From: a virus
Direction: 5' to 3' (one strand)
IMG/VR virus record: IMGVR_UViG_3300029787_000203
Span: 1 to 32,111 of that record
DNA: 32,111 nucleotides
A model generated the notes under the pieces. That model made no database searches, was not told the DNA's origin, and was given only the letters and a program-made list of their open reading frames with translations. The position numbers were made by a program, and so were the translations under genes. The number at the start of each line of letters is the position of its first letter. Within the stretch, counting starts at the first letter, position 1. Shown one piece after another: positions 29,933 through 32,111 of the stretch.

Positions 29933-30729
29933 TGTTGGGAACTTATTACTATCACGAAATAATTAGAAAGACAATTGTTACTTTTGGAACACTTTTTAAT
30001 GCTATTAATATTCGTCATGATGACAGTGCAGGTAATACTTATAGTGAATTAAAAGTTCCGTTGGCATATGGTCCTTCACAAAAATTTCTTGCAAGATTGG
30101 AACAACAGGCAGATTTGAATAAACCTGTTGGTATTACTTTACCTAGGATGTCCTTCGAGATGAATAATGTTAGTTATGATTCTTCTAGAAAAACTGGAAT
30201 TACTCAAACATTTAAAGCATCTGATGGAAATAATATAAAAAAAGTTTTTATGCCTGTTCCATATAACATTGGATTTGAATTAAACATACTTGCAAAATTG
30301 AATGATGATGCACTGCAAATTGTTGAGCAAATATTACCATACTTTCAACCATCATTCAATCTTACAGTGGATTTGGTAAAAGAAATAGGAGAAAAAAGAG
30401 ATATACCGATAGTTTTGGATAGCATAAATTTTCAAGATGATTATGAAGGTGATTTTTCTACACGAAGAGCATTAATATACACATTAGGATTCACTGCAAA
30501 AACATACTTATTTGGTCCTGTTGCAGAATCCTCAGAAGGTCTCATTAAGAAAGTTCAAGTTGATTATAGTACAAACACTGATGTCAAAAATGCAAAACGT
30601 GAGATGAGATATACAGTTACTCCAGATCCTGTTGATGCTGGTCCAGATGATGATTTTGGATTTAGTGAAACTTCAGCAGTTTTCTCAGATTCTAAAACTT
30701 ACAGTCCTACAAGGCAAACTGATATCTAA
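29932..30729 (+). CDS. gp15: tail sheath terminator/stabiliser gp15
   Basis: The 265-aa product (T4 gp15 is 272 aa) begins MLGTYYYHEIIRKTIVTFGT and contains LFNAINIRHDDSAG, VPLAYGPSQKFLARLEQQAD, ITLPRMSFEMNNVSYDSSRK and MPVPYNIGFELNILAKLNDD, all typical of the gp15 family. gp15 forms the hexamer that caps the tail tube and sheath and binds the gp13/gp14 neck. The C-terminal 35 residues (DAGPDDDFGFSETSAVFSDS...) are acidic and probably flexible. Unlike its neighbours it has no repeat insert. TAATG overlaps on both sides tie its translation to gp14 and gp16. Confidence 0.93.
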   Translation: MLGTYYYHEIIRKTIVTFGTLFNAINIRHDDSAGNTYSELKVPLAYGPSQKFLARLEQQADLNKPVGITLPRMSFEMNNVSYDSSRKTGITQTFKASDGNNIKKVFMPVPYNIGFELNILAKLNDDALQIVEQILPYFQPSFNLTVDLVKEIGEKRDIPIVLDSINFQDDYEGDFSTRRALIYTLGFTAKTYLFGPVAESSEGLIKKVQVDYSTNTDVKNAKREMRYTVTPDPVDAGPDDDFGFSETSAVFSDSKTYSPTRQTDI

Positions 30730-31184
30730 TGACTAATTATGATCCTATTGACGAGGCTTTAAATATAAAGTCCGAAATTATTCCAACACCAGAGGATGTT
30801 GTTTCTAAAAAGAAAAATCAAATTAAAAAAGTTGAAGGACAAGATGTAGGTAAAGATTATGACTATACAAGAGGTAATTTATATTCATTAATAGAAAAAG
30901 GTCAAGAAGCAATTAATGGTATCATGGAAGTTGCTGGTGAGACTGCAAGTCCTAGAGCATATGAAGTTGCAGGACAGTTAATTAAATCTGTGGCAGATAC
31001 GACTGATAAATTAATGGATTTACAGAAAAAAGTAAAAGAAGTTGATGAAGAAAATAATAAAACTACAAATAATGTTACAAATAATGCACTATTTGTTGGT
31101 TCAACATCCGAGTTATCAAAAATGCTGAAACAAGGAATTCTAAATAATAAGGAGAAATCTACTCGTAATAATGAAAAAGTGTAA
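30729..31184 (+). CDS. gp16: terminase small subunit gp16
   Basis: The 151-aa product (T4 gp16 is 164 aa) follows gp15 as in T4. It is mostly helical: a polar N-terminus (MTNYDPIDEALNIKSE), then DYDYTRGNLYSLIEKGQEAI and NGIMEVAGETASPRAYEVAG, and QLIKSVADTTDKLMDLQKKV continuing into a Lys/Glu-rich helix, matching the central oligomerisation coiled coil and 'SPRAYEV' region of gp16-family proteins. The C-terminal VGSTSELSKMLKQGILN is also family-typical. gp16 rings recognise concatemeric DNA and stimulate the gp17 nuclease/ATPase. The start is fixed by a TAATG overlap with gp15. The last 14 bases overlap the next ORF. Confidence 0.9.
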   Translation: MTNYDPIDEALNIKSEIIPTPEDVVSKKKNQIKKVEGQDVGKDYDYTRGNLYSLIEKGQEAINGIMEVAGETASPRAYEVAGQLIKSVADTTDKLMDLQKKVKEVDEENNKTTNNVTNNALFVGSTSELSKMLKQGILNNKEKSTRNNEKV

Positions 31185-32111
31185 ATCTGGATACTATTAT
31201 TGTAACACCGATAAGAAATGTAAACCAATTCCAAAGGGTTATCGAATTGGTTATGGTGGATATTTACGTAATGAAAAAGATGATGATGATAGTAATGGTA
31301 AAAAGAAAAATGGTAATGGAAATGGTAATGGTGGTAATGGAAATGGAAATGGAAATGGAAATGGTGGTAATGGAAATGGTGGAGGAAATGGTGGCGGGAT
31401 GTCTGAAGGTTCTCTACATAAATGGTTCAAAGGTTCTAAATCCAAAGATGGAAAAGGTGGTTGGGTCAATGTAGTCACAGGTGGAACTTGTGCTAGTGAT
31501 GAACCAGGTGAAGGAACACCGAAATGTGTATCTTCTTCAAAGAGAGCAAGTATGACAAAGGCAGAAAGACTCTCTGCATCAAGAAGAAAAAAGAAAGCAG
31601 ATCCAGGTCAACAATCAAAAACTGGTGCTGCAAAACCAACTTACGTATCTACTGACAAAAAGAAAATGAAAGAAGAAATTCAAATCACTGAAGCAGACAA
31701 AAAAGGCAAAGGTAGTGGAAAGAAAGATGCTTGCTATCATAAGGTAAAAGCAAGTGCAAGTGTTTGGCCTTCTGCATACGCATCTGGTAGATTAGTTCAG
31801 TGCCGTAAGAAGGGTGCTGCTAACTATGGTAATAGTAAGAAGGAAGAGTTTGAACCATCAGGAGTTTTATTTCAACAGTTTGTAGAGAAATGTTGGGATG
31901 GATATAAAGCTTATGGTATGAAGAAAAAGGGTGGCAAGATGGTTCCTAACTGTAAACCTGTTGGAAGTGTTAAAAAGGAAGAAGTTCAGAGAGATGAATA
32001 CGGTGATCCAATTGGAGGTCCAAAGATCTCAAAGAAACAGAAGGCAAAAAATCTTGCAATGAATGAACCTGATAAGCAACATACTACAGATACTTCTGAA
32101 GGTATGGCATA
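31171..32111 (+). CDS. Lys/Cys-rich modular protein (partial, 3' end missing)
   Basis: An ORF opens at ATG 31171, overlaps gp16 by 14 bases, and is still open at the window edge (at least 313 aa). AAGGAG at 31149-31154 may be its ribosome binding site (16-base spacing, long). Modules: a Cys cluster (C4, C11, C17); an Asp run; an Asn-Gly linker (residues 47-76); SLHKWFKGSKSKDGKGGWVN with C107 and C119 and SSKRASMTKAERLSASRRKK; DACYHKVKASASVWPSAYAS with C188 and C211; and EKCWDGYKAYGMKKKGGKMV with C241 and C261. The Cys/Lys modules resemble uncharacterised ones I recall from marine phages. ITE-A at 172-175 fits the T4 prohead protease (gp21) site, so an internal head protein is possible. The expected gp17 is not seen in the window. 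Function unknown. Confidence 0.75.
   Translation, partial: MKKCKSGYYYCNTDKKCKPIPKGYRIGYGGYLRNEKDDDDSNGKKKNGNGNGNGGNGNGNGNGNGGNGNGGGNGGGMSEGSLHKWFKGSKSKDGKGGWVNVVTGGTCASDEPGEGTPKCVSSSKRASMTKAERLSASRRKKKADPGQQSKTGAAKPTYVSTDKKKMKEEIQITEADKKGKGSGKKDACYHKVKASASVWPSAYASGRLVQCRKKGAANYGNSKKEEFEPSGVLFQQFVEKCWDGYKAYGMKKKGGKMVPNCKPVGSVKKEEVQRDEYGDPIGGPKISKKQKAKNLAMNEPDKQHTTDTSEGMA
31223..31252. other. 9-bp perfect inverted repeat after gp16
   Basis: AACCAATTC (31223-31231) and GAATTGGTT (31244-31252) are exact reverse complements around a 12-base loop. The repeat lies 39 bases past the gp16 stop, inside the Lys/Cys-rich ORF. No T-run follows, so it is not an ordinary terminator. It may be an mRNA hairpin or a protein-binding palindrome. 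Confidence 0.55.
31309..31398 (+). repeat. AATGGN hexamer-type repeat coding Asn-Gly linker
   Basis: Ninety bases made almost only of AAT and GGN codons encode a 30-residue Asn/Gly tract (residues 47-76 of the Lys/Cys-rich protein). The tract is tandem enough (runs of AATGGA/AATGGT) to be prone to replication slippage. The encoded linker should be unstructured and flexible. Confidence 0.85.

Follow-up and report, generated by a model that had tools for sequence, protein, structure and literature searches.

A modular cysteine-bearing protein encoded next to the small terminase gene of ocean cyanophages probably works like a T4 internal head protein

Introduction

T4-like cyanophages rank with the most abundant viruses of the ocean, and to our knowledge their virions carry proteins that nobody has explained; we know of no earlier account of why cyanophage virions contain a SAM hydrolase, an APH-like kinase and a cytidylyltransferase. 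The closest described systems are the internal head proteins of T4. IPII and IPIII share the N-terminus MKTYQEFIAE↓A (the arrow marks the cleavage position), a capsid-targeting sequence (CTS) in which residues 4 and 7 serve targeting and residues 8 and 10 serve processing, and T4 gp21, the prohead protease, follows the cleavage rule L/I-X-E (PMC9026906). Internal head proteins of phiKZ and SPN3US are likewise cut C-terminal to Glu by a gp21-like protease (PMC9026906), but these are other proteins with another motif. In cyanophages, the gap between the terminase genes gp16 and gp17 is a published hot spot (PMC3037559).

Here we analyze an ORF at the end of the window, by which we mean the whole 32,111-base IMG/VR record. 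We consider it likely that its product acts as an internal head protein of T4 type, one that is directed to the prohead core, cleaved by gp21 and probably co-ejected with DNA. In our best reading, it is a protein of a known kind that is new in form, and the cyanophage CTS rule that emerged alongside is a valuable by-product.

Results

The window ends inside the ORF (31171..32109, + strand; 313 aa, open at the contig end), so its own genome gives no extension. The ORF of at least 313 aa overlapping gp16 that a preliminary description had recognized was borne out, with 14 bases shared between gp16 (30729..31184) and the ORF start. gp16 is the small terminase (phrog_445, E=1e-54; PF11053, 27.7 bits for a cut-off of 25).

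30729..31184, + strand: gp16, terminase small subunit, upstream neighbor (phrog_445, PF11053)
31171..32111, + strand: modular protein, probably of internal-head type, N-terminal 313 aa, truncated at the 3′ end (full-length in L001, L004 and L006)

The placement between gp16 and gp17 had been thought unusual on the premise that gp16 is normally followed by gp17. In cyanophages this is often not so, and the placement turned out to be an ordinary feature of these phages: the slot holds genes in S-SM2, S-SM1, S-SCSM1 and S-CREM2, and of 22 metagenomic loci covering both gp16 and gp17, 16 have a family member inside the interval. In the S-SM1 slot (L086:11440-14893), genes of internal-head type also have host-like metabolism genes for neighbors, namely petE, PTOX, gnd and zwf. 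Another family, of 101-109 aa with the N-terminus MKSFQQFLSE↓S, occurs in the slot (L087:44215, L281:7979, L029:6588, L062:3964), often directly after the modular gene, and probably constitutes a further kind of internal head protein.

Scanning viral contigs that carry gp16, we obtained four with an 84-95% identical gp16 followed by an ORF with the same start. The complete gene encodes 621 aa in L001, 603 aa in L004 and 1010 aa in L006; the copy in L002 is also cut by the contig end. In L001 and L006 the C-terminus is DUF6321 (PF19846; 40-80 bits, cut-off 28.5), a domain that falls outside the 32,111-base stretch and beyond the end of the 313-aa fragment, and L004 has the same terminal sequence as the relatives ending in DUF6321. 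gp17 follows within ten bases 3′ of the gene in all three completed relatives and is therefore where it belongs. Extension to the 3′ end and gp17, proposed earlier as a check, was thus achieved in relatives and not in the ORF's own genome.

The ORF is no oddity of one phage: it encodes the first half of a patchwork protein that is common among ocean cyanobacterial viruses. We found relatives in 374 phage records, almost all from Synechococcus or Prochlorococcus phages, where they are annotated as hypothetical, structural or virion proteins; the S-SM2 and S-SM1 records give the family name T4-GC 119, and a remark in the S-SM2 record, ‘similar to Synechococcus phage S-SM1 protein’, is a hint only. 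The 313-aa fragment matches phrog_3477, phrog_727 and phrog_12753, none with an assigned function, and phrog_727 (T4-GC 119) is matched with E=4.1e-65 by the fragment and 1.1e-76 by L001. By profile and by gp16-gp17 location, the protein is a member of T4-GC 119/phrog_727/phrog_3477. Another check proposed beforehand was to search each module by profile; phrogs match the modules M1, M2 and M3 described below, and nothing in Pfam exceeded the cut-off for the 313-aa ORF, whole or module by module. A PDB sequence search returned low-complexity or chance matches only. In a full-text literature search, no paper mentioning DUF6321 was found, and the neighborhoods of this domain in pelagiphage HTVC203P and roseophage CRP-7 indicated no function.

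The protein is a string of modules joined by linkers, as follows.

31171..31278, + strand: M1, residues 1-36, Cys 4/11/17, CKSGYYYCNTDKKCK (phrog_30733, E=5.6e-7)
31300..31398, + strand: Asn/Gly linker, residues 44-76, predicted disordered (pLDDT <50; length varies among relatives)
31399..31659, + strand: M2, residues 77-163, SLHKWF...C107...C119...KPTYVSTDK (phrog_3477, E=5.8e-77, stretch 79-169)
31684..31695, + strand: candidate prohead-protease site I172-T-E174↓A175 (aligned linkers; disordered linker)
31726..31848, + strand: M3, residues 186-226, DACYHKV...WPSAYASG...VQCRK (phrog_727, E=4.1e-65)
31870..31890, + strand: internal CTS-like element F234-QQ-F237-VEK (same place as KTYQQFVDE, KTFAEFQAE and SFQEFQAE in relatives)
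31891..31962, + strand: M4, residues 241-264, C241WDGY...NC261, predicted beta-hairpin (pLDDT 77-81)
31990..32109, + strand: further segment RDEYGDPIGGPKIS...TTDTSEGMA, residues 274-313 (shuffled among relatives)

The four cysteine groups reported earlier (Cys at 4, 11, 17, 107, 119, 188, 211, 241 and 261), their very basic setting (pI 9.7; net charge per module +5 to +10), the Asn-Gly linker at about residues 44-76 and the motif I172-T173-E174-A175 were all recovered. M1 is conserved in L001-L006, L027, L028, L052 and others. M3 falls below the cut-off against PF19197 (DUF5872; 16.5 bits, cut-off 27.5, E=0.014) and also forms whole stand-alone ORFs of 44-75 aa in the genome scan, mostly on short metagenome-bin contigs. 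Across relatives the module set comprises M1, M2, M3, M4, DUF192, helical modules, a zinc-ribbon-like segment and DUF6321, in variable order and number. The segment RDEYGDP...SEGMA has been shuffled: the module preceding it is M4 in L001, M2 in both L009 and L016, and M3 in L070. In S-SM2, SSM2_109 (L081:8500-10626) has DUF192 (COG1430) inserted between M2 and M3, and similar inserts are found in L009, L014, L016 and L070. AlphaFold2 predicts small modules amid disorder (pLDDT 58.7 for the 621-aa protein of L001 and 52.5 for the 313-aa fragment), with residues 141-183, including the ITE↓A site, disordered. An apparent likeness to alpha-defensins was set aside, the Foldseek matches in PDB being insignificant (E 3.7 and worse).

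We then asked how candidate prohead-protease sites are distributed. Cyanophage-type gp23 propeptides, used as a control, end in LxE↓ in 26 of 26 cases with x variable, which indicates that the L/I-X-E rule holds in this group. ITE↓A at 172-175 conforms to this rule, and MSE↓G precedes M2. Candidate sites at module starts of the S-SCSM1 relative SSCSM1_29 include AMTE↓G, IEE↓S and VSE↓G, and S-CREM2 ORF160 has EISE↓G. We did not rely on motif counts over the whole protein alone, since the control [IL]xK[AGS] is also raised by conserved module sequence; in their place we examined only the 24 residues before M2, M3, M4 and M7 (the start of DUF6321), a set of 174 distinct linkers. [ILVM]xE[AGS] occurs in 97 of these linkers versus 16.8 ± 3.6 after shuffling, and controls gave 29 (reversed), 2 (D for E), 13 (K for E) and 17 (spacing one shorter); the strict form [IL]xE[AGS] was seen 48 times for 8.4 expected, and since the linkers are related by descent these shuffle statistics overstate independence. 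At many module starts the P3 residue is V or M, a substitution that the gp23 control never shows. In aligned linkers the hydrophobic residue, x and E are kept, often with a small residue next; P2 is free while P3 and P1 are kept, as expected for a protease site. In our best reading of these alignments, gp21 would cut at module starts, position 174 (ITE↓A) included.

The same motifs might instead be inherited linker composition in a fast-evolving protein that, in the head or not, goes unprocessed. Such an origin would fit the abundance of K and E in the linkers and the common ancestry of related ones, and we hold it to be unlikely because motif spacing and residue specificity exceed those of composition-matched controls and because P2 varies between a conserved P3 and P1.

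In relatives, these modules are also joined to a CTS of T4 type. In the gp16-gp17 slot of S-CREM1, MKTYNDFITE↓V is joined to DUF6321 in the same register as in T4, and L287 joins MKTFNQFIAE↓E to DUF6321. L118 and L136 encode the modular protein as two ORFs, the second of which opens with MKTFNQFQAE↓CW, that is, CTS, M4 and DUF6321; an N-terminal CTS is joined to M4 in L118, L136 and L367. MKTFKQFQEE↓ is joined to M9 in L437, and an S-SM2 protein has MKTLKQFLKE↓ at its N-terminus and M9 at its far end. Undivided members have KTYQQFVDE, KTFAEFQAE, SFQEFQAE or SFQQFSEK before M4: F-x-x-F-x-E is present in 21 of 65 M4 linkers versus 1.6 expected, and none was seen before other modules. The 313-aa protein begins with MKKCKSGYYYC and has no N-terminal CTS; its LFQQFVEK before M4 is a degenerate copy, with F-x-x-F kept and VEK in place of xAE.

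Others have reported relatives in virions. SSCSM1_29 of S-SCSM1, the relative that matches best (58% identity over 83%), is annotated ‘virion protein’ in a record in which we counted 48 such labels; mass spectrometry of CsCl-purified particles detected 45 proteins according to the S-SCSM1 paper, and a few of the labels may therefore have another basis. In S-CREM2, ORF160 (M2-M4-M3; far from gp16-gp17) was detected by mass spectrometry with 7 unique peptides, and ORF137, which has a DUF6321-like end and lies in the gp16-gp17 slot, with 4. The S-CREM1 mass spectrometry list contains 14 proteins.

A neck, tail or outer component, present in particles but outside the head interior, could equally be picked up by virion mass spectrometry, which gives no location, and fiber-like virion proteins are among the slot neighbors in S-SCSM1 and S-SM2. 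We find this quite improbable given that a T4-type CTS is joined to the same modules, that module starts bear prohead-protease sites, and that the protein is strongly basic and lacks repeat or fiber architecture. A packaging accessory working with terminase, the other role suggested earlier from the position, gp16 overlap and basic charge, is very improbable, because terS and terL lack the virion-detected mark in proteomes that mark module proteins, some relatives, such as S-CREM2 ORF160, are distant from gp16-gp17, and many unrelated genes share the slot, in S-SM1 even petE, gnd and zwf.

Discussion

Virion-detected relatives, LxE/IxE sites at module starts and CTS fusions in relatives now give good support to the earlier proposal, that of a basic and modular protein inside the head which the head protease might cut. 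On these sequence grounds, the chain of small, basic, Cys-bearing modules with disordered linkers between them would be taken into the prohead core by a CTS-like element that is internal here (FQQFVEK, preceding M4). gp21 would then cut at LxE/IxE-type sites at module starts, among them ITE↓A at 174, and the released modules would stay in the head and, by analogy with T4 only, would probably be ejected into the host with the DNA. Because the protein has a gp21-type site and no strict N-terminal CTS, we propose a likeness to T4 internal proteins in the way it works and stop short of calling it one of them.

Relatives resemble T4 IPII and IPIII (and Alt) in having a CTS and a gp21 site, in being basic and in being virion-borne, and with IPII and IPIII the cyanophage relatives have the register M-K-T-Y/F-x-x-F-x-x-E↓ in common. 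On the contrary, the mature parts of the T4 proteins are unrelated in sequence to the cyanophage protein, which has many modules per chain, an internal CTS-like element and Cys-bearing modules common to several phages.

A more tentative extension, to which we give somewhat less than even chances, is that the protein is a head-protease polyprotein: gp21 would cut every module start, so that a single gene would supply each capsid with assorted small Cys-module peptides, which would be injected against host defenses or to reshape host physiology. Each module would work alone after cutting, so phages could trade modules freely.

Loading of the head by a CTS may extend well beyond the T4-type internal head protein proposed here. 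Five S-CREM2 genes have an N-terminal CTS: the SAM hydrolase (MKDFDSFLEE↓), ORF13 (MKDLHSFLTE↓), the APH-like kinase (GTG start; MKRFDAFLTE↓), ORF136 (MQTFSMFFSE↓) and the cytidylyltransferase (MKNFSSFLTE↓).

5081 (-), 10546 (-), 12846 (-), 107301 (+) and 124608 (+): the five S-CREM2 CTS genes (L253-L255)

The products of all five (5/5) were detected by mass spectrometry, against a background of 52 of 219 ORFs (p=6.5e-4), and shuffled ORF starts gave 0.16 CTS matches versus 4 seen (ATG starts). S-SCSM1 has two CTS proteins, a virion-detected NMNAT (L088:38819, + strand; MKSFLQFLKE↓A) and SSCSM1_30 (106 aa), which carries no virion mark. We infer the rule that an N-terminal M-K-x-F-x-x-F-[LIM]-x-E↓ marks cyanophage proteins loaded into the head; our full-text search, from which subscription journals are largely absent, found no paper on a CTS in cyanophages. 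This rule would explain the SAM hydrolase, APH-like kinase, cytidylyltransferase, NMNAT and perhaps a Cas9-like nuclease in virions, and would allow cyanophage proteins that are packaged in the head and probably injected to be predicted from sequence and put to the test. The Cas9-like protein is S-CREM2 ORF12 (L253:10313, - strand), which was detected by mass spectrometry, has RFASFMAE↓A at residues 18-25, and is possibly a head-packaged nuclease with its CTS set inward from the N-terminus.

Applied to T4, the CTS pattern misses IPI and finds IPII, IPIII, gene 61.1 (L442:19130, - strand; MKTFKEFIKE↓D) and an ORF at 114210 (L444:14210, + strand; MLLEFKQFLYE↓A), the last two being candidates for unrecognized internal proteins.
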